Shown here piece by piece: positions 4,045-29,117 of a stretch of 64,000 bases of DNA. Within the stretch, counting starts at the first letter, position 1. The number at the start of each line of letters is the position of its first letter. The position numbers and the translations under genes are program-made. The stretch lies in contig CAJWLK010000002.1 of assembly GCA_913043255.1 (NCBI GenBank), positions 124,001-188,000 on the forward strand, written 5' to 3'. The notes beneath the pieces are model-generated. The model was not told the DNA's origin. It saw only the letters and a program-made list of their open reading frames with translations, and ran no database searches. The stretch is from an uncultured Gemmatimonadota bacterium (GTDB lineage Bacteria; Gemmatimonadota; Gemmatimonadetes; Palauibacterales; Palauibacteraceae).

Positions 4045-4428
4045 TCACTGGGGATTCACCCACCCTATTCGACAACATGCCCACGAGATTGCCGCACCTA
4101 AGCAGGACCCCAAACTGTTCATTCCGACATCAGCCCATTCGAATATCCGAACGCTGAATAGACTCTGCGCATATTCTGGACAGAATGAGATAATGCCTAT
4201 CAAAAGCAGTATGCTTGATATTCGCAAATGTGAATGGGTGGCACCAAACACGGACAGAAAGAGAACAGCACTTCCAATTATATGGAGCTCCGCATCGCCG
4301 AGTGGCACTGACTGACGCCCAATAGGAGCTGGTGACATGTAGGTGTATCCGAAAATTACCAACACTACGATGAGCTGGATCCAGCGTAAGGGCATCGATG
4401 ACACGGTTTCTCGAAGATCGTCCAACAT
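4045..4428 (-). CDS. VanZ-like small membrane protein
   Basis: From the ATG at 4428 the product is 127 residues with about four hydrophobic helices. The distal half carries the VanZ-family arrangement: a polar E-x-A-Q-S-L-F-S-V-R-I-F-E-W-A-D-V block followed by N-S-L-G-S-C-L-G, matching the usual Q-x-F-x-x-x-R-x-x-x-x-x-D-x-x-x-N-x-x-G pattern. The early acidic/His segment (G-D-A-E-L-H) matches the usual D-K-x-x-H. A longer frame begins at 4494 inside the symporter gene, but the first 22 codons overlap its coding sequence and are unlikely to be used. Function is unknown; VanZ relatives affect lipid- or glycopeptide-related envelope properties. Confidence 0.65.
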   Translation of the reverse strand: MLDDLRETVSSMPLRWIQLIVVLVIFGYTYMSPAPIGRQSVPLGDAELHIIGSAVLFLSVFGATHSHLRISSILLLIGIISFCPEYAQSLFSVRIFEWADVGMNSLGSCLGAAISWACCRIGWVNPQ

Positions 4429-19048: not shown

Positions 19049-20773
19049 TCAGGCTTCTGCGGTCTGGTGAGTTTCTCCGGACTCTCTCGGGACGCGAATC
19101 CGTTCAACTATGGACTGGACGTGTTCCGGGGGCGGCGCCGTAAATCGTGAAACGACCAGTGCTACAGCGAAGTTAAGCGCCATTCCGACCGTACCAATGC
19201 CCTCTGGTGAGATCCCAAACCACCAGTTATCAGCCACGTTAGCCGCCGGGTTTACAAATTTGAAGTACACGATATAAGCGGCTGTGAACGTAATGCCCAC
19301 GAGCATCCCAGCGATCGCACCTTCGCGATTGAGACGCTTGGAGAAAATTCCCAATATGATCACAGGGAAGAAAGATGCTGCAGCGAGACCGAATGCAAAT
19401 GCCACCACCTCGGCAACAAACGCAAACGGATTAATCCCTAGGTAGCCAGCGATAATGACCGCAACAGCCGCACTTATACGGGCCGCAACAAGTTCGCCTT
19501 TTTCCGTAATCTTCGGTCGAAGCCCCCGCTTTAAGAGATCATGACTCACCGCAGTCGAAACAACTAAGAGCAGCCCTGCGGCCGTGGACAGTGCAGCTGC
19601 TAAGCCACCTGCAGCCACAAGAGCAATCACCCAATTGGGAAGTCGTGCAATCTCGGGGTTTGCAAGCACCATAATGTCCCGGTCGATCGTCAGTTCGTTT
19701 TGGAGTGGCTCCCCGGAAGCAGCTGTGGCGGCCGGCCCCACATATTGGATGAGACCATCATTGTTGTGATCTTCAAACGTGATAAGACCGGTCGTCTCCC
19801 ATTTTGTGAACCACTCCGGCATCTCGGCATACGGTTCGTTCACTACCGTGTTCAGAAGATTCGTACGAGCGAATACTGCCACGGCCGGTGCTACCGTGTA
19901 CAAGATTGCAATGAACATGAGTGCCCACCCTGCGCTAATTCGAGCATCGCGAACTTTGGGTACCGTATAGAAGCGGATGATCACGTGCGGCAGTCCCGCT
20001 GTCCCAACCATGAGCGCCGCTGTGATCGCAAAAATATCAATGGTGGTCTTCGTCCCCCCCGTATAGGCAGCAAAGCCTAGCTCCTCGTGGAGTCTGTTGA
20101 GGTGATCGAGCAGGTAGGTTCCCGTTTCCTGTTCAGCTCCACCGAAACCAAACTGAGGTATAGGATTCCCAGTAATGAGCAGGGAAAGAAAGATTGCGGG
20201 GACCGTATAGGCGAAAATTAAAACGCAGTACTGAGCAACCTGTGTATAAGTAATCCCCTTCATACCACCGAGCACAGCGTAGAAAAAGACGATACCCATG
20301 CCAATGATCACCCCAAGCGTGATATCGATCTCAAGGAAACGACTGAATACGATCCCCACACCACGCATCTGGCCAGCGACATAAGTAAAAGAGACGAAGA
20401 TCGCACAAACGACGGCCACCATTCGCGCAGCTTGCGAGTAGTATCGATCACCTACGAAATCAGGGACCGTGAAGGCACCGAACTTTCGTAGATAGGGGGC
20501 GAGGAGAAGCGCTAGCAGCACATATCCGCCAGTCCAGCCCATGAGGTAGACTGAACCATCATAGCCCAGGAACGAGATGATCCCCGCCATAGAGATAAAG
20601 GACGCCGCCGACATCCAGTCTGCAGCTGTTGCCATCCCATTTGCTACGGGATGAACACCCTTACCCGCCACATAAAACTCACTGGTAGAATTCGCCCGCG
20701 ACCAAATCGCGATACCGATGTATAGCGCAAATGACAGGGAAACGAGTGCGAAGGTCCATGCCTGGACTGTCAT
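19049..20773 (-). CDS. Sodium:solute symporter large subunit (ActP-like, paired with DUF4212 protein)
   Basis: This 574-residue polytopic protein of the SSS family has about 13 transmembrane helices. It includes the family's early A-A-D-W-M-S-A-A-S-F-I-S segment near residue 50, G-G-M-K-G-I-T-Y-T-Q, and a late A-A-A-L-S-T-A-A-G-L-L-L-V-V-S-T-A Na+-site helix. It resembles acetate/monocarboxylate symporters and, through its small subunit, the two-component VC_2705-type group. Its start codon overlaps the stop of the DUF4212 gene by four bases (ATGA), so the two subunits are translationally coupled. Confidence 0.92.
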   Translation of the reverse strand: MTVQAWTFALVSLSFALYIGIAIWSRANSTSEFYVAGKGVHPVANGMATAADWMSAASFISMAGIISFLGYDGSVYLMGWTGGYVLLALLLAPYLRKFGAFTVPDFVGDRYYSQAARMVAVVCAIFVSFTYVAGQMRGVGIVFSRFLEIDITLGVIIGMGIVFFYAVLGGMKGITYTQVAQYCVLIFAYTVPAIFLSLLITGNPIPQFGFGGAEQETGTYLLDHLNRLHEELGFAAYTGGTKTTIDIFAITAALMVGTAGLPHVIIRFYTVPKVRDARISAGWALMFIAILYTVAPAVAVFARTNLLNTVVNEPYAEMPEWFTKWETTGLITFEDHNNDGLIQYVGPAATAASGEPLQNELTIDRDIMVLANPEIARLPNWVIALVAAGGLAAALSTAAGLLLVVSTAVSHDLLKRGLRPKITEKGELVAARISAAVAVIIAGYLGINPFAFVAEVVAFAFGLAAASFFPVIILGIFSKRLNREGAIAGMLVGITFTAAYIVYFKFVNPAANVADNWWFGISPEGIGTVGMALNFAVALVVSRFTAPPPEHVQSIVERIRVPRESGETHQTAEA

Positions 20774-21087
20774 TCATCCACCTCTTCGATCTCATCCACT
20801 TTAAATGCGCGGTCGAGGCGATTCATTAGAAAGACATAGACGAAGATCAATACAACAAAGACATATATGGAGCCCTGTTGTGCGAACCAGAAACCAAGGG
20901 GGAATCCAGTCCCCGGCACTGTGATCTCATTCAAAGTGTCCACAAACAAAATCCCGGCCCCATACGAAACGGCGAACCATATTGAAAGCAGAATTCCTAC
21001 ATACTGCAGGTTTCTGCGCCAGTACTCTGATCGAGTCTGGTCTTCGCGCACGAGATTTGAGTCAGAACTGTAATCTGGGTGACTCAT
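20770..21087 (-). CDS. DUF4212-type small subunit of the sodium:solute symporter
   Basis: The 105-residue protein has an N-terminal polar tail with a Y-W-R-R-N-L motif, two transmembrane helices and an acidic C-terminus. This is the layout of the small subunit encoded just before the large subunit in VC_2705-type symporters. ATGA overlaps occur on both sides: its start overlaps the stop of the selenoprotein gene and its stop overlaps the start of the large subunit. It is presumed to stabilise or modulate the transporter. Confidence 0.9.
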   Translation of the reverse strand: MSHPDYSSDSNLVREDQTRSEYWRRNLQYVGILLSIWFAVSYGAGILFVDTLNEITVPGTGFPLGFWFAQQGSIYVFVVLIFVYVFLMNRLDRAFKVDEIEEVDE

Positions 21088-21743
21088 ATTTTTTCACCGG
21101 GAATCGCGGCCAGGATCTCTGAGGGCTCAGCCCTCACCGTATAATCGGTATCGGCAGAGGCAAAAACCACCTCTCTATTGGAATCAATAACGTACGTGGC
21201 CGAGATGGGAAGCTCCCAACTTTCATCGCCATTGAATCGGAGAAGATCAATATCCAAAGCCCTTAGGTACAACTGCCTAAGATCATCAGGCAGACGAAAC
21301 GTAAGACCGTAGTCTCGAGCAACACCTAGGCCCAGATCAAGCAAAACATCGTACTCTATGCCATCCTCTTCGACCCAACTTTTTGCAAAATCGGCAATTT
21401 GCGGGGATAACGTGATTAGAGTCGCACCCTTAGCATGTATCTCTGGGAGGATAGACTGAAAAGCAGCCTGCTCTTCACGACAATATGGTCACCAACGGCC
21501 TCGAAAGAAGCTAAGGATGACTGGTCCTCGTTCTAGAAGCGCTTCGAGTTGAACTGTCTTGCCAGCCAGATTCGGTCGCGCAAATAGCGGAGCTTCCTGG
21601 CCAACTACCACGATGCGATCCAGTATGCCTGTTGCACCGAGTTCTTCTGTCGTGTGATTCATTAGGGCCGTCGCTTCAGGCGGGCGTCTACTCTCGTTGG
21701 CAGCCCGCATCTCGCTGAGCCGTTGGTTCAATGGACCAGTCAT
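21084..21743 (-). CDS. Peroxiredoxin-like selenoprotein (AhpC/TSA family) with selenocysteine at an in-frame TGA
   Basis: The frame runs from ATG 21743 to a TGA stop at 21086-21084 with one internal TGA at 21491-21489 (codon 85). Read as selenocysteine it gives a continuous 219-residue thioredoxin-fold protein. Before the TGA are G-Q-E-A-P-L-F, the G-K-T-V-Q-L strand and G-P-V-I-L-S-F-F-R-G-R-W; right after come P-Y-C-R-E-E. In homologues this is W-C-P-Y-C, so Sec replaces the peroxidatic Cys and Cys88 is the likely resolving residue (U-x-x-C). The downstream part has normal family features (T-L-I-T-L-S-P, an S-A-T-Y-V-I-D strand) and no other stop. A SECIS-like hairpin follows the TGA. The real stop overlaps the next gene's start, which a decayed gene would not be expected to preserve. 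Predicted role: reduction of peroxides or related oxidants. Confidence 0.88.
21458..21476 (-). promoter_or_regulatory. Bacterial SECIS-like hairpin downstream of the Sec TGA codon
   Basis: On the minus strand, 12 bases after the TGA (21491-21489), GAAGAGCA pairs with TGCTTTTC (one G-U wobble) around a GGC loop; opening the last A-U pair gives a 7-bp stem with an AGGCU loop. The loop begins about 19-20 bases after TGA and has G in its first two positions. Both agree with the general rules for bacterial selenocysteine insertion elements that SelB recognises inside the coding sequence. Confidence 0.75.
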
Positions 21744-21807: not shown

Positions 21808-23001
21808 GTGCCCAAGGAGGCACCGCTGGCCGAACACGACGATAACTATGTGGTCATGGAAGAATTCGAACGCTTCTCTCAGAAGTACGATGTTTTCCGA
21901 CGATCGTTTTGGGACAAACACGTCAAAACTGAGAAGAGTAGACGCTTCTATCGTACCTACCGTGACACTCTAGACAGCTGGCGCAAAGCAGATGGCTTCA
22001 CTCAACGAGACTACGCTCTCAGAAACGCTTCCTGGCATGTGAGCGACCTCTTCACCGAGTATAAAGAGAACGAAGATCGACGTGAAGGCTTCAACGATGC
22101 GTTCACTCTTCAACGAGAGGTTGCAGACGAAGCAGTCGAGTTTGAGTCCCCCGAGGCTGCTGCCATAGAAATCAAGCGTGTAGCGCGTGGTTTTGGAGCC
22201 GACTTGGTGGGTATCACAGCGATGGATCTCCGTTGGCTTTACACGGAAAAATTTAGTGACATCTCTGGAACTGCGCGTCCTAACGACATTCCCGAAGATC
22301 TGCGCTCTGTGATCGTTACGGCCCAGGCGATGGACTACTCGCTAATTCGCACCGCCCCCTCTGCACTCTCCGGAGCAGCTACCGGTCTCGGGTATTCGCA
22401 CGATGCCCTCGTGGTTCTCTCGTTGGCGCAATATCTCCGAAACCTCGGATACCGTGCGATAGCAAGCATGAATGATTCAGCACTTGCAATTCCGTTTGCA
22501 CTCCAGGCTGGCTTGGGAGAATACAGTCGACTGGGACTTCTTATAACTAAAGAGTTCGGTCCTCGCGTCCGACTCGGTAAGGTGTTCACTGACCTTCCAC
22601 TCGCGTTCGATGAACCAATTCGGTTTGGGGTAAAAGAATTTTGCGATTCTTGTCGACGTTGTGCCGACGCGTGTCCTGTGGGAGCGATACCACACGGAGA
22701 TCCGAGTCTCAAACGATATAACAAATCAAATCTCAAAGGGGTCAAGAAGTGGTCGGTCGATGGCGAAAAGTGTTTCGGATATTGGGCGGCCCAAAATAGT
22801 GACTGTGCTATTTGTGTACGTGTGTGCCCTTACAACAAGGATTATTCGCGGTGGTGGATGCGATGCGGACGTCGACTAGCCGCCACTCCAATTCGCCGAT
22901 TTCTTCTCTGGCTTGATATAAAGTTGGGATTCGGTGAGCGCGTGAAACCGAAAAACTGGTGGTCTCGTCTAGGTACTTCGGTTTCACAAGGATCACGATA
23001 A
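21808..23001 (+). CDS. Reductive-dehalogenase-like cobalamin and 2x[4Fe-4S] protein
   Basis: The start is GTG 21808; ATG 21856 is an alternative. The 397-residue product has a long N-terminal region, then a nitroreductase-fold cobalamin-binding domain typical of RdhA/QueG proteins: I-A-S-M-N-D, A-G-L-G-E-Y-S-R-L-G and a V-R-L-G-K-V-F-T-D-L-P-L strand at about 218-264. Two ferredoxin motifs follow: C279-x2-C282-x2-C285-x3-C289-P and C322-x10-C333-x2-C336-x3-C340-P. The W-x6-C-F-G-Y-W spacing between clusters is RdhA-like rather than QueG-like. There is no Tat signal, so it is likely cytoplasmic. It is divergent from the selenoprotein gene by 64 bases and followed by a membrane protein gene. 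Confidence 0.82.
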   Translation: MPKEAPLAEHDDNYVVMEEFERFSQKYDVFRRSFWDKHVKTEKSRRFYRTYRDTLDSWRKADGFTQRDYALRNASWHVSDLFTEYKENEDRREGFNDAFTLQREVADEAVEFESPEAAAIEIKRVARGFGADLVGITAMDLRWLYTEKFSDISGTARPNDIPEDLRSVIVTAQAMDYSLIRTAPSALSGAATGLGYSHDALVVLSLAQYLRNLGYRAIASMNDSALAIPFALQAGLGEYSRLGLLITKEFGPRVRLGKVFTDLPLAFDEPIRFGVKEFCDSCRRCADACPVGAIPHGDPSLKRYNKSNLKGVKKWSVDGEKCFGYWAAQNSDCAICVRVCPYNKDYSRWWMRCGRRLAATPIRRFLLWLDIKLGFGERVKPKNWWSRLGTSVSQGSR

Positions 23002-23995: not shown

Positions 23996-24643
23996 TTATG
24001 TGGCTCCGTATTTTTCGGCCACCCAGTCCGTGAACATTTGTTCACCTCCAACCTGAACTCCGGTGTCGCTCGCTGAATGGAGTAATGCATCAACAAACGT
24101 CTGCCCATAACCACGACTGAACGAGATCAGAATGCAGTCAGTTTCCATTGTCACGACTTGACAGGGAACGTGGAGAACCGGGCCTTGGGTCAAAAATGGC
24201 GTTATTCGCTCAGGAAAAAAGAGGTCAAGACTACTGACACACTCCATAACAGTCGGTGTGTTCTTTCCTAGAATCGCAAGCCAGCAATGTGAATCCGTTG
24301 TATCAGTATACCCGACGTCGGGAGGCGTATCTGGCGGCGCACCGAAACCGATAGAGCCGATGGATACCTGCGTCCGGTTCATGCGGCTGATTATTAGGCC
24401 ACTGGCAATCGCCACCTCGCCCGGGCGGGGGGGCACATGCAAGCCGAATGGCGATTTCTCATCAAGACAACTGTCCTGGTAGTCCCAGCGTGGCCGATGG
24501 CTAAGATCGATGAGGCGAGGGCTATCTAGCGTACTATCCTGAGGATAAGACCGTGCAACATTCCATCCGTCTTGTGGCTCAAGCTTGGTTGGTGTCGCAT
24601 CAAACACGACGGGTGATTGGCGGTGAAGCGATGGTGTTGTCAT
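23996..24643 (-). CDS. soxG: Sarcosine oxidase gamma-type subunit
   Basis: The 215-residue protein starts four bases inside the end of soxA (ATGA overlap). Sequence conservation in gamma subunits is low; the assignment rests on position, size and a GcvT-like/folate-domain half in the C-terminal region (W-L-A-I-L-G, F-F-P-E-R-I-T-P, then D-C-I-L-I-S-F-S-R-G-Y-G). In the heterotetrameric enzyme this is the smallest folate-fold subunit, packed on the alpha subunit. It completes a B-D-A-G gene order. Confidence 0.8.
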   Translation of the reverse strand: MTTPSLHRQSPVVFDATPTKLEPQDGWNVARSYPQDSTLDSPRLIDLSHRPRWDYQDSCLDEKSPFGLHVPPRPGEVAIASGLIISRMNRTQVSIGSIGFGAPPDTPPDVGYTDTTDSHCWLAILGKNTPTVMECVSSLDLFFPERITPFLTQGPVLHVPCQVVTMETDCILISFSRGYGQTFVDALLHSASDTGVQVGGEQMFTDWVAEKYGAT

Positions 24644-27570
24644 GCCCTTAACCGTCCACCATCGGGATCATAGAAGTGAGGTCGGGCCACAGTAACTGCA
24701 CAGCGTTTTGTCCCACTTCCAAGGTTTTCGTACAGGTGCAGTTTTTCCCCTTCGACTGCAAGCCGTTCATCAACCAGCGCCATACCAAATTGCAAACCCA
24801 AGGCTTCACTATACCGAGTCGTGCACACAAAACCAGCGACGTCATCTCCATCCACTACAATCGCACCATCCTTGAGGCGATGATTTGAATCGTCGGCACG
24901 GAACCCGACCAGCTTCATTCTGCCTGTCTGTTCGAAGCAAGCCCGGAGCGCCGGGGCGCCGACCTTCTTCGACTCGGTATCATCTTGATCCCAAAGCCAA
25001 CCCATTCCGATGTCGATAAGCGTGACTCGCTGCTCAGATTCTGCTCCAATTATCACGTGCCCCTTCTCCGCTCGCATGCAGTACTGTGCCTCAACCCCAA
25101 ACGGACGAATACTAAATTCTTGGCCCGCTTCCCAAAGCAAGTCCCACACGTATTGGGCATAACTCGCCCCCACGTGGAGCTCGTAGGAGAGTTCACCTAC
25201 AAATCCGAGTCGAAGACAGCGCGCTGGAACATCTTCACCGACTGAGACCTCTCGGTACCCAAGATATGGAAACGCCTCATTTGATATGTCGGCGGACGTG
25301 ATTTTTCGAAGAACTCGGCGTGCGTTTGGGCCCGCCACATTAATGGATGCCAAGCCATCGGTTAGATTGACGAGGTTATAGTCCCAACCATCGTAACGCG
25401 TATGGTATCGGAACCACTCCACCGTGTCTCCAGCACGGTTCGAACTTGTCGTAAAATAAAAATCATTGTCTCCGACCGGAACAACGACTCCATCGTCGAT
25501 AATGTTTCCCGTGTCGTTACACATCGCACTGTACTTACAACGGTCCACTGTCATTTGAGACATGTTAGAAATAAAAACGCGCTGAAGTGCCTTTACAGCG
25601 TCGGGGCCATATATCCGAAATTTTCCAAGTGGCGAACTATCGAGGAGGCCAACATTCTTACGTACATTCGAAATCTCCTCCCGACACATAAAATCGTCAC
25701 TGAAATATCGTGCTCTCTGCCACGCACCAACCCGCCGGAAAACACCTCCACGGGCAGACTGATTGTCATGGAGGGGGGTCCGCTTACATACATCGTGGTT
25801 TGGCCCAGCAACCGTCCCCATTGTGGTTGGAATGACTGGCGGACGAACCGTGGTGCTGGTGATCTCTTCGGCCGCATCACCAGCCATTTCTGCCATCGCC
25901 ATAGCCAGGTTTTGGCCAGGTACTCGGTATTGGCCCGGACCGAGACCAAAATTTCCGAACCGCTTAGCAAGTTCCGGCACATCAAAACCTTGCCCCGCAC
26001 ACTGTCCTACATTTTTCCAGGTTCCGTCCTCATCGAAGTCGAGAAAAGCTTTACGACCACTCCCGATCCGCGGACCGCAGAGAATCTCACAACCGGGCGG
26101 CGTACCCGGAAGGTTCTTCATCCGCTCGCGCGCACTTTCAAGGTCGGATCCGGTGTCACAACCACATGCCTCCACAGCCTCAAGGCCTGCAATTCGACCT
26201 GAAGCTTGGATGGCATCGACATCGACAAGTCCCAAAACACGACCTGCTGCAAATACGTTGAGCGGAAGACTCACTAGTTGAAAAGTATGGGTGTGTTCGG
26301 AATGGCCGAACCGGGCCCCCGCACAGGAAAGTACTCCTATATCGGGCTGGCGACCTGCATTCGTCACCAGTGCATCACACGCAAACCGCCTTATTTCTCC
26401 ACCGTCCAGCGGTCCAAGATCAACACCTCTCACACAGCTTTTTCCATGAACTTCACTCGCCGCATAACCTGGCAGAAATTCGATTCCCGCCTGTCGGATT
26501 TGGTGGACGAGATCAGGATCATGACCGTCAGAGCGGGCATCTGCTACAATCGGCACATCAAGCCCGAGGATTGAGAAATCGAGTGCGGCTTCGAGCGAAA
26601 GATCGTCGCCCACACTGAAGGCGACAACGTTGCCGGGACGAACCCCATAAGTCCGTGCAAGCCGCCATGCCGTGTCCAACTGAAGTACCCCGGGCCGATC
26701 ATTATTCTTAAATATGAATGGCCGTTCGATCGAACCCGTCGCAACCACCACGGTTTGGGCGCGACACTCCCAGTGCCGCTCTTCAAAACCATCCGTACCA
26801 GACCCGTTTTGAAACCCTGTGACAAGGTTCTCGCCCCACACTCCCGTCACCGGCGCACCTTCAAAGACACGGATCCCGGGGTGTTCATGCACCCGCGCAG
26901 CCAATTGGCGCGTATGCTCGTATAAGGGAGTCCCAGTTCGTTCGCGAACACGCCAGTCTAGGTGACCACCTAACCACGGTCTCCGTTCGAATAGACACAC
27001 CCGAATGCCGGGTCGAGCTGCAGATAGGGCGGCACTCATCCCTGCAGCTCCTCCCCCAATCACTGCTACTTCAGCATTCAAATAAAGTTCGGACCTTTTG
27101 CGTTGGGGGGACGATCTCTCGATATCGAGCACCCCAAGGCCCGCTAGTTTACGCATACGATTTTGGAAAAACGGCCACGCGCGGTAAGGGCGGTGAAAAA
27201 CTTTGTAATAAAACCCGGCAGGCATCCATCGATCGAACCGATCAAGCCATCCGTAGCGATCGAACCGTGGATCCCCTTTTACATTTTGCGCCGTAACGAA
27301 CATCCCTTCTCGAAGAGGAGTTGTCCCAGATGATTGATTGGGCACCCCATTGATCGCGAGGAGCTGACTCGATCCCTCCCCTTCGAGATCATATAAACCG
27401 CGCGGGCGATGGTACTCAAAGCTACGACCAAAAATACGGACATCCGCCGCCCAAAGTGCTGTTGCAACCGTATCGCCTTCATACCCCACGAGATTCCGTC
27501 GCACCCAATGGAACCCGATTGGACGATCCACATCAATCCGCTGTGTTCGAGATGGTGGCAACCTATCCAC
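24640..27570 (-). CDS. soxA: Heterotetrameric sarcosine oxidase alpha subunit
   Basis: The start is GTG 27570 with GAGG upstream, overlapping the end of soxD by eight bases. The 976 residues follow the SoxA plan: an N-terminal ferredoxin-like fold without Fe-S cysteines (1-100), a dinucleotide-binding domain opening with V-I-G-G-G-A-A-G-M near 172, a second nucleotide-binding region with V-V-V-A-T-G-S, and a C-terminal GcvT/aminomethyltransferase domain from about residue 600 (D-S-S-P-L-G-K-F-R-I, R-K-N-V-G-L). The enzyme oxidatively demethylates sarcosine, passing the methyl carbon to tetrahydrofolate and electrons through FAD/FMN to oxygen. Confidence 0.95.
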   Translation of the reverse strand: MDRLPPSRTQRIDVDRPIGFHWVRRNLVGYEGDTVATALWAADVRIFGRSFEYHRPRGLYDLEGEGSSQLLAINGVPNQSSGTTPLREGMFVTAQNVKGDPRFDRYGWLDRFDRWMPAGFYYKVFHRPYRAWPFFQNRMRKLAGLGVLDIERSSPQRKRSELYLNAEVAVIGGGAAGMSAALSAARPGIRVCLFERRPWLGGHLDWRVRERTGTPLYEHTRQLAARVHEHPGIRVFEGAPVTGVWGENLVTGFQNGSGTDGFEERHWECRAQTVVVATGSIERPFIFKNNDRPGVLQLDTAWRLARTYGVRPGNVVAFSVGDDLSLEAALDFSILGLDVPIVADARSDGHDPDLVHQIRQAGIEFLPGYAASEVHGKSCVRGVDLGPLDGGEIRRFACDALVTNAGRQPDIGVLSCAGARFGHSEHTHTFQLVSLPLNVFAAGRVLGLVDVDAIQASGRIAGLEAVEACGCDTGSDLESARERMKNLPGTPPGCEILCGPRIGSGRKAFLDFDEDGTWKNVGQCAGQGFDVPELAKRFGNFGLGPGQYRVPGQNLAMAMAEMAGDAAEEITSTTVRPPVIPTTMGTVAGPNHDVCKRTPLHDNQSARGGVFRRVGAWQRARYFSDDFMCREEISNVRKNVGLLDSSPLGKFRIYGPDAVKALQRVFISNMSQMTVDRCKYSAMCNDTGNIIDDGVVVPVGDNDFYFTTSSNRAGDTVEWFRYHTRYDGWDYNLVNLTDGLASINVAGPNARRVLRKITSADISNEAFPYLGYREVSVGEDVPARCLRLGFVGELSYELHVGASYAQYVWDLLWEAGQEFSIRPFGVEAQYCMRAEKGHVIIGAESEQRVTLIDIGMGWLWDQDDTESKKVGAPALRACFEQTGRMKLVGFRADDSNHRLKDGAIVVDGDDVAGFVCTTRYSEALGLQFGMALVDERLAVEGEKLHLYENLGSGTKRCAVTVARPHFYDPDGGRLRA

Positions 27571-27826
27571 GCTCTACCTCATGTGGCGGTTCTTCTCGGT
27601 TTGTTGCGGGGTTTCGCCAAGTGGTGAACCAAACACCACATCCACCCGTATGATACCACCACTCCTCCTGGGGCTCGGGACGGGTCATTCGGAACTGCGT
27701 CCAGCGGAAATGTTCGTCACTCGACAGCTGTGCTTGCTCTGGCCGCGGACCACGTTCTTGACCACCATAGCGGAACTCATACACATCTCGCGCACCACAA
27801 ACGGGACAGGTAAGCCGGAAGGTCAT
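27563..27826 (-). CDS. soxD: Sarcosine oxidase delta subunit (zinc-binding)
   Basis: The 87-residue protein has C-P-V-C-G near the N-terminus and H-T-G-G-C-G-V-W-F near residue 60, supplying three Cys and one His as the structural zinc site known in this subunit. Other family marks are E-F-R-Y-G-G and R-N-P-A-T-N near the C-terminus. It lies between soxB and soxA. This soxD is unrelated to the cytochrome SoxD of sulfur oxidation mentioned for 14632-15297. Confidence 0.95.
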   Translation of the reverse strand: MTFRLTCPVCGARDVYEFRYGGQERGPRPEQAQLSSDEHFRWTQFRMTRPEPQEEWWYHTGGCGVWFTTWRNPATNREEPPHEVERG

Positions 27827-27854
27827 CGGGTAGACTCGATGGGTTGAATCAAAA

Positions 27855-29117
27855 TTAGTCCCAGTGGCCGTATTTCATTGTCGTTGCCGTCTCCCCCATA
27901 TAACGATTCTCAAGGAACCTGCTCAACGCGAATGGGGCAAGGATTTCCGGCGCTTCTTCACGAGCAATGAACTCAGCCATGTATTTACCTGTAATCGGGC
28001 CGGACTTGAACCCAAAATAGCCCCACCCAAGATCGATGTAGAGTCCGTCAAACATCACATTTCCATCTAGAATTGGGGCCATGTCGGGTGTCATGTCGGC
28101 GAGCCCCGCCCAGATGCGTAAAAAACGAACTCCCTCAAGACACGGCATGAAATCAGTCAGGGCTTCCGCCTGGTGTTTGAAGTAGTGGGCGGTCACATCG
28201 GTTGTGTAATTGACCTGCGGGTCCATATGTGCCCCGGTGGCGATCTCTCCTTTGAGTGTTTGGTTTGCGTAAACGTGATAGGCACCTGAACTGAGTACGC
28301 AGTTAAGGAGTGGCTTAAGTGGCTGCGTCACCATCGCTTGAATCGTAAGAGGGTGTATCGGGAGTTCGATATCCAGCATGGTGCAGATCGACGCGCCGTA
28401 TCCTCCTGCCATGACAGCAAGCTTGTTACAGCTGATCGGGCCATGGCTTGTTTGGACTCCTGTTACTCGGGGTCCATCGACGTCAATGCCTTGGACTTCA
28501 ACTCCTTGGTGGATCGATGCCCCATGTTTGTCTGCGCCTTTTGCCAAACCCCAGACGAGAGCATCGTGCCTGATGGTGCCTCCCGGTGGGTGATACATAC
28601 CGGCTTGAATGGGGTGTGCGGGCCGATCGGAAATATCAAGTGCCGGGATCACCTCTTTGCATTGTTGTGGATCCAGCAACTCTGATTTCACGCCGCTGAA
28701 GGTTGCCGTATTGATCGCAAGTCGAAAACCACTGACAGCAGCCTCGCTATGCGCGAGGCTAAGATTCCCACAGTTAAAAAACATCAGGTTGAAATCAAGC
28801 TCGTCCGTGAGGATTGGCCATAATCGAAGACCCTCATCGTAAAGCTTTACGTTCTGTTGTGTACGTTGGTTCGCGCGCACATGGGCCGTATTTCGACCCG
28901 ACCCTCCGAATCCTATGTATTGGCTCTCAAGTACAGCTATGTCTTTAATGCTATGTTCTTTAGCCAGATAGTACGCTGTGGCGAGACCATGGATTCCACC
29001 ACCTATGATGACTACGTCATAGTGGCGCTTGAGCGGCCTGGTCTTCCATAAGCGGCCAAATTTTGTGTGACTGTGATCAATCGAACTCACTGACGGCGAT
29101 AGGCGTTTCAAAGACAC
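27855..29117 (-). CDS. soxB: Sarcosine oxidase beta subunit (FAD/FMN amine oxidase)
   Basis: This is a 420-residue DAO-family flavoprotein. It has an N-terminal extension of about 30 residues, then V-V-I-I-G-G-G-I-H-G-L (Rossmann FAD site), G-F-G-G-S-G-R-N, the G-G-T-I-R-H-D-A-L-V-W-G segment holding the histidine expected to bind FMN covalently in this subunit, and W-A-G-L-A-D-M-T-P-D-M-A-P near the C-terminus. The start used is GTG 29117, immediately downstream of an in-frame stop; its ribosome site is poor and TTG 29111 is possible. It forms the oxidase core with SoxA. Confidence 0.93.
   Translation of the reverse strand: MSLKRLSPSVSSIDHSHTKFGRLWKTRPLKRHYDVVIIGGGIHGLATAYYLAKEHSIKDIAVLESQYIGFGGSGRNTAHVRANQRTQQNVKLYDEGLRLWPILTDELDFNLMFFNCGNLSLAHSEAAVSGFRLAINTATFSGVKSELLDPQQCKEVIPALDISDRPAHPIQAGMYHPPGGTIRHDALVWGLAKGADKHGASIHQGVEVQGIDVDGPRVTGVQTSHGPISCNKLAVMAGGYGASICTMLDIELPIHPLTIQAMVTQPLKPLLNCVLSSGAYHVYANQTLKGEIATGAHMDPQVNYTTDVTAHYFKHQAEALTDFMPCLEGVRFLRIWAGLADMTPDMAPILDGNVMFDGLYIDLGWGYFGFKSGPITGKYMAEFIAREEAPEILAPFALSRFLENRYMGETATTMKYGHWD

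Follow-up and report, generated by a model that had tools for sequence, protein, structure and literature searches.

Peroxiredoxin-like (Prx-like) selenoproteins that carry UxxC in place of TxxU are described in the available text of papers from 2005 (PMC1088965), 2006 (PMC1794560) and 2008 (PMC2398784) and of a 2026 review (PMC13188914). These thiol:disulfide oxidoreductases are a known kind of selenoprotein, catalogued since the mid-2000s by Zhang and Gladyshev. The accessible part of PMC9312934 takes domain and motif together as the rule for filing such proteins, and by this rule a protein with an AhpC-TSA domain and a UxxC motif is placed with the Prx-like UxxC family. The available portion of Table 1 of PMC13188914 lists a 'Peroxiredoxin-like family protein', cd02970, with a UxxS selenoprotein, while extracts of PMC9312934 give pfam13911 (AhpC-TSA_2) for a UxxS 'AhpC/TSA family protein', presumably the same entry. 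The same review, in its available text, names the TxxC/TxxU motif of peroxiredoxins.

We analysed a 64,000 nt stretch of DNA from an uncultured Gemmatimonadota bacterium (the window), in which a gene interrupted by an in-frame UGA very probably encodes a peroxiredoxin-like selenoprotein, with selenocysteine (Sec) directed to codon 85 by a bacterial SECIS (bSECIS) element. The gene resembles those of the Prx-like UxxC selenoproteins in its AhpC-TSA domain, UxxC motif, exchange of Sec with Cys, downstream bSECIS and predicted redox function; the likeness to that family (Geobacter reference WP_010940744.1) drawn here is one of domain, motif and description. It shares the spacing of the Sec motif with the cd02970 family, whose product name is borne by plasmid homologues of the gene, but differs from the cd02970/AhpC-TSA_2 UxxS protein in having UxxC. 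PF13911 gave no match to the window protein at E 0.001 and does match 5 of the 40 members of our alignment A2. Sec-containing peroxiredoxins (TxxU) have the same fold, and the Sec of the window protein lies three residues earlier than theirs, at the Thr of TxxU/TxxC. ResA/TlpA, the SelL-related proteins (NF040769) and the WAxxUGC proteins (NF041054) are alike in placing CxxC or UxxC at a helix start in a thioredoxin fold, but the window protein fell far below the curated cut-offs of the corresponding models, with scores of 35.8 bits against 170, 28.5 against 120 and 20.8 against 300. No NCBIfam model reached its cut-off on this protein.

A read-through frame with UGA in the active site

The gene occupies 21084..21743 on the minus strand. 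It starts with the ATG at 21743, meets the in-frame TGA at codon 85 (21489..21491), continues through 134 stop-free codons and ends at TGA 21086–21084, giving 219 residues and a stop. Under translation table 11, this frame yields only fragments of 84 and 86 amino acids. The read-through protein matched Pfam AhpC-TSA (pfam00578) with 85.2 bits, against a cut-off of 26, and Redoxin with 57 bits; all 40 members of alignment A2 matched pfam00578 at E 0.001. The TGA lies in the context RGRW-U-PYC, making the motif U-P-Y-C, that is UxxC instead of TxxU. Its second half, Cys88 (21480..21482, minus strand), is probably the resolving cysteine and is nearly invariant in the 40 sequences of A2. The first-pass annotation, made from the letters alone, had proposed a single 219-residue minus-strand frame of AhpC/TSA fold through the TGA, two fragments under conventional gene finding, no other stop for 134 codons and a terminal stop overlapping the next start, and the sequence and the Pfam match bear out this whole layout.

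The terminal TGA overlaps the ATG (21087–21085) of the next gene as ATGA. This gene (20770..21087, minus strand) encodes a DUF4212/TIGR03647 sodium/substrate symporter small subunit, as judged from its ORF and profile matches, and is itself overlapped by a sodium:solute symporter gene (19049..20773, minus strand; ORF and profile match). The divergent neighbour (21808..23001, plus strand) encodes an iron-sulfur protein of the reductive dehalogenase family with 4Fe-4S domains (TIGR02486, 190 bits, cut-off 160). A conserved operon was considered as a clue to function and dropped: only L062, out of 88 relatives, has counterparts of all three neighbours (DUF4212, symporter and dehalogenase) next to the gene, so no function was inferred from the neighbours. 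This absence of a conserved neighbourhood is itself weak evidence, since the loci span at most 1.5 kb (close-relative set) or 4 kb (named-genome set) on each side. Further along the window, at 24640–29117 on the minus strand, long ORFs resemble subunits of sarcosine/dimethylglycine oxidase or dehydrogenase, and their translations, the sole basis for this reading, suggest catabolism of methylated amines.

The whole window was scanned loosely for TGA read-through combined with a SECIS-like hairpin and a redox-like context, and 24 of 243 candidates passed. When these 24 were judged by eye, no credible second selenoprotein was found in the window besides that at 21491.

Relatives carry UGA or a Cys codon at the site

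The close-relative search covered 149 relatives, own genome included, and 32 of them matched at E 1e-20. RGxWUPYC with TGA was present in all 30 loci read, the window's own gene among them; the other two matches are G004, which ends short of the site, at residue 82, and G107, which stands outside this base-level reading. The phylum search gave matches in 41 of 395 genomes, and a TGA lay within the match in 40 of the 41 (counted from the match table where no locus had been read). The exception, G268, had a match without any stop. The search of named genomes gave 346 relatives, of which the best 80 were retained. At the site, where the first-pass annotation expected Cys in homologues, 68 of these 80 have TGA and 12 a Cys codon (TGC/TGT), with no third residue. 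As the sets overlap, the counts for named and unnamed relatives are not independent. Cys88 is replaced by Asp in one of the same best 80 of 346, a Cys form (L130). Among viral contigs there were 16 pattern matches, none of which encoded a relative when examined by tblastn.

The named-genome relatives include Candidatus Palauibacter species. By the phylum labels of their records, Sec forms come from Gemmatimonadota, Rokuibacteriota, Thermodesulfobacteriota, Nitrospirota, Myxococcota and Pseudomonadota, and Cys forms from Acidobacteriota, Actinomycetota, Pseudomonadota and a Gracilibacteria bin. One relative labelled Bacillota (L086) nests among Rokuibacteriota in the tree and is probably a mislabelled bin or a case of gene transfer. 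This tree, built with the Sec/Cys column masked, requires two Sec/Cys changes, undirected. Homologues on plasmids were found in 50 records, and the four that were read all have Cys at the site; 10 of the 12 records listed, of the 50 found, bear the product name 'peroxiredoxin-like family protein'. Adding these four Cys homologues to the tree left the number of changes at two, with deep forks weakly supported.

The sequence after the TGA is under purifying selection. Eleven close Sec pairs were picked by hand, and in ten of them dN/dS downstream of the TGA was 0 to 0.33; the members of the eleventh pair (L081/L082) are identical there and give no computable ratio. Between the window and its nearest kin synonymous sites are saturated, and protein identity was used. 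Identity of the window protein to L054, L024 and L062 was 79, 75 and 75% over 63 residues after the TGA, and 66, 63 and 59% over 70 residues before it. The first-pass annotation had named a random pattern of substitution after the TGA as the mark of a decayed gene; it was looked for, and purifying selection was found instead. The two fragments obtained under table 11 are what would be expected of a once Cys-encoding gene hit by a nonsense mutation or a sequencing error. However, a pseudogene or an error would not produce higher identity after the TGA than before it, and the same TGA recurs in dozens of separate assemblies, followed by a conserved hairpin, in a genome that has the Sec machinery (see below). 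We regard this explanation as already refuted by the conserved TGA and the constrained sequence downstream of it, and its probability as next to nil.

The hairpin is kept by synonymous codon choice

The hairpin (21457..21477, minus strand) begins 12 nt after the TGA. Eight base pairs, 21476–21469 with 21465–21458, close a 3 nt loop, GGC, and the computed fold has nine. The first-pass annotation had described an 8 bp hairpin with a G-containing loop at this distance, as is indeed found. According to the available text of PMC13188914, a bSECIS has a loop of 3–9 nt with G in its first two positions, lying 16–37 nt after the UGA, a stem of 4–16 bp and an MFE of at most −7.5 kcal/mol. With its GGC loop 20 nt past the UGA, a stem of 8–9 bp and an energy of −10.8 kcal/mol, the window hairpin falls within all these published limits, which settles the comparison with a bacterial SECIS model that the first-pass annotation had left to be made. 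Its energy by itself is only moderately unusual (z −2.05 against dinucleotide shuffles, 9 of 200 shuffles being as good), and no Rfam family matched the window at gathering scores.

Much stronger evidence came from the relatives. After removal of 21 sequences identical over 210 nt around the site, 110 genes were reduced to 89 distinct ones, 77 Sec and 12 Cys. The loop was GGN in all 77 Sec genes. Of the 77 Sec genes, 68 form the inner five pairs in register, and of the 12 Cys genes none does, against about 3% in both groups when synonymous codons were resampled with each gene's own codon usage. Furthermore, codon U+9 was GCT in 75 of the 77 Sec genes, while in the remainder of these genes GCT accounts for 172 of 1704 Ala codons; in the Cys genes this codon was GCT in 2 of 12, another Ala codon in 9 of 12 and Thr in one. 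Two loci (L094 and L104, both at 4241–4288) have GCG at U+9 and a register-shifted hairpin with a 7 nt loop, which looks like another way of building the same SECIS. At p < 0.05, hairpin energy was better than under synonymous resampling in 51 of the 77 Sec genes, the window's among them (p = 0.02), and in none of the 12 Cys genes; the other 26 Sec genes individually missed this level.

Base pairing was also examined in an alignment of 69 Sec sequences (64 distinct). Paired cells amounted to 86.9%, compared with 78.2% in shuffles, and across the 64 distinct rows the covariation score was 0.242, whereas shuffles gave 0.101 and slid controls no more than 0.095. The closing pair was A-U in 25, U-A in 24 and U-G in 12 of the 64 distinct rows. 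Doubly changed pairs (2) and pair types (7) showed no excess over shuffles, with 489 and 478 of 500 as high, because there is little variation in the inner pairs. When the bSECIS criteria were applied loosely, on MFE, the groups separated poorly, with 63 of 77 Sec and 5 of 12 Cys genes passing.

The hairpin sits inside a conserved coding sequence, which leaves room for a reading in which hairpin and codon bias only encode the peptide E-Q/L-x-A-L, and the UGA acts mainly as a regulated stop to give an 84-residue product. This is extremely unlikely. Synonymous choice differs between Sec and Cys genes that encode similar peptides, as the counts for GCT at U+9 and for the inner five pairs show, and the 84-residue product would end before Cys88 and miss most of the fold. 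The hairpin is a bacterial SECIS element kept by synonymous codon choice, and the conservation of TGA and hairpin register across phyla puts it far beyond chance.

The genome encodes the selenocysteine machinery

The window's own genome (2.45 Mb in 28 contigs, 93.9% complete) was searched for the four sel genes that the first-pass annotation had proposed to look for, and all four were found above curated cut-offs. The tRNA-Sec (selC), with anticodon tca, scored 74.1 bits against the RF01852 cut-off of 47 and was also called by ARAGORN; SelB scored 361 bits (cut-off 242), SelA 501 (268) and SelD 372 (125). A tRNA-Leu of the same genome also exceeded the tRNA-Sec cut-off, at 50.1 bits, and the call therefore needs score and anticodon together, the model alone being non-specific. 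In the genome's own selD, which lies outside the window (L019, G000:C1:189470-190399), a TGA falls in frame at the active site (HGAGUGCK), so that this genome has at least one more selenoprotein gene candidate.

SelB was detected at E 1e-75 in 119 of the 149 close relatives and in 30 of the 32 that have the gene; as SelB is so common, this contrast is weak. The two carriers without a full SelB match, G033 and G115, both have a tRNA-Sec with anticodon tca. G115 also has SelA, and its two partial SelB matches below the cut-off, covering model positions 2–171 (contig C12) and 191–576 (C13), are apparently a single gene broken by the assembly. In G033 (81% complete, 510 contigs) SelA gave no match at E 1e-20, and its one weak partial SelB match, of 94 bits, is more likely another translation factor. 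SelB was above the cut-off in all 11 further Sec-gene genomes tested from the phylum search, and in the TGA-less G268.

Since the case for Sec insertion is built here from sequence alone, we also considered that the UGA is decoded otherwise, either because a Trp or Cys tRNA reads through it or because the code is reassigned. This is very unlikely: homologues without Sec at the site have Cys there (12 of the best 80 of 346), not Trp; the gene's own terminator is TGA; the genome has tRNA-Sec (tca) with SelA, SelB and SelD; and the hairpin fits the bSECIS description. Selenocysteine insertion is much the best explanation of the locus. The first-pass annotation had arrived at Sec insertion by inference, and the Sec/Cys exchange in relatives, the machinery in the genome, the selected hairpin and the purifying selection all argue for it.

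Fold and predicted chemistry of the active site

An AlphaFold2 model was made from alignment A2 (40 sequences), with Cys in place of Sec, and had a mean pLDDT of 95.9. In this model, residue 85 immediately precedes a helix formed by residues 86–97. The closest PDB folds found by Foldseek were Bcp4, BcpB, AhpE and a ResA variant. Sequence alignment placed W-C85-P-Y-C88 on M-T-P-G-C of BcpB (5epf), F-S-P-V-C of 2cx3 and W-C-K-P-C of ResA. Position 85 thus corresponds to the Thr/Ser of the peroxiredoxin TxxC and to the first (N-terminal) Cys of the ResA CxxC, and position 88 to the peroxidatic Cys of peroxiredoxins; we take the functional roles of these aligned positions (Thr/Ser, peroxidatic Cys, first Cys of ResA) from general knowledge. 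The Thr/Ser of TxxC has a role in peroxide activation, and a Thr/Ser three residues ahead of the peroxidatic Cys or Sec is defining for peroxiredoxins. In all 80 of the best 80 of 346 relatives, this position is instead occupied by Sec or Cys. ResA was the best single-sequence match, at 47 bits, and in the profile search BcpB scored 69 and ResA 58 bits.

As Sec lies at the position of Thr/Ser in true peroxiredoxins, the protein is probably a thioredoxin-like UxxC enzyme, functioning as a thiol-disulfide oxidoreductase rather than a peroxidase. The main rival to this function is a true peroxidase in which Cys88 is the peroxidatic residue and Sec85 its resolving partner, instead of Sec85 making the attack. 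The top Foldseek matches, which are peroxiredoxins of the PrxQ/Bcp and AhpE types, and the alignment of Cys88 with their peroxidatic Cys are consistent with a peroxidase. We nevertheless consider it rather unlikely, because the Thr/Ser of TxxC is replaced throughout the 80 relatives, and ResA-type CxxC proteins, aligned at this site, score comparably to the peroxiredoxins. Of the first-pass label 'peroxiredoxin-like', the AhpC/TSA fold stands; as a description of function, 'thiol-disulfide oxidoreductase' is better than 'peroxidase', with Sec at the Thr/Ser position.

A thiol-disulfide oxidoreductase of this kind could work as follows. The SECIS hairpin just 3′ of UGA codon 85 would recruit SelB with Sec-tRNA, and Sec would enter the first position of the U-P-Y-C active site, at the start of the helix. 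No signal peptide was evident by eye in the window protein, and the location is probably cytosolic. The Sec85 selenolate would probably attack an oxidised substrate (a disulfide, sulfenate or peroxide) and then pair with Cys88 as a selenenylsulfide, which could be recycled by a thiol reductant such as thioredoxin.

Discussion

The locus holds a real selenoprotein gene, and this gene belongs to the already known Prx-like UxxC kind. What is added here is a set of such genes from Gemmatimonadota and other phyla, together with a window protein that lies below every NCBIfam cut-off. The naming of the gene in Gemmatimonadota was not found among the titles and abstract openings of the open-licence literature searched. 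A term search for 'seleno' in the available text of two Gemmatimonadota genome papers (PMC10469786 and PMC11596202) found none, and PMC8318568, which mentions selenoprotein and Gemmatimonadetes, concerns in its available part the selenoproteins of a deltaproteobacterium.

It is conceivable, though on present evidence doubtful, that these genes form a separate subfamily, distinct from the catalogued Prx-like UxxC and UxxS proteins. Across at least six phyla, such a subfamily would have Sec as its stable form, retained in most members, its SECIS would stay in register and be nearly invariant, and the genes would be prone to splitting in annotation because no curated model covers them. For the catalogued Prx-like 1 family, the accessible text of the GOS paper counts 225 Sec forms against 2,740 Cys forms, compared with 68 Sec and 12 Cys among the best 80 of 346 relatives here, a contrast that is only a hint, as our sample is biased towards near kin of a Sec query.

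The Sec reading corrects the annotation of a gene that plain table 11 translation breaks into two. The synonymously constrained SECIS, encoding E-Q/L-x-A-L with GCT, is a sequence signature that can be used in searches of metagenomes, and the sharp difference between Sec and Cys genes in retention of the hairpin is a clean example of selection on an RNA element within a coding region. For the organisms themselves, the results point to active use of selenocysteine in Gemmatimonadota, in the genus of Candidatus Palauibacter, and the Sec arrangement is kept in many uncultured bacteria.
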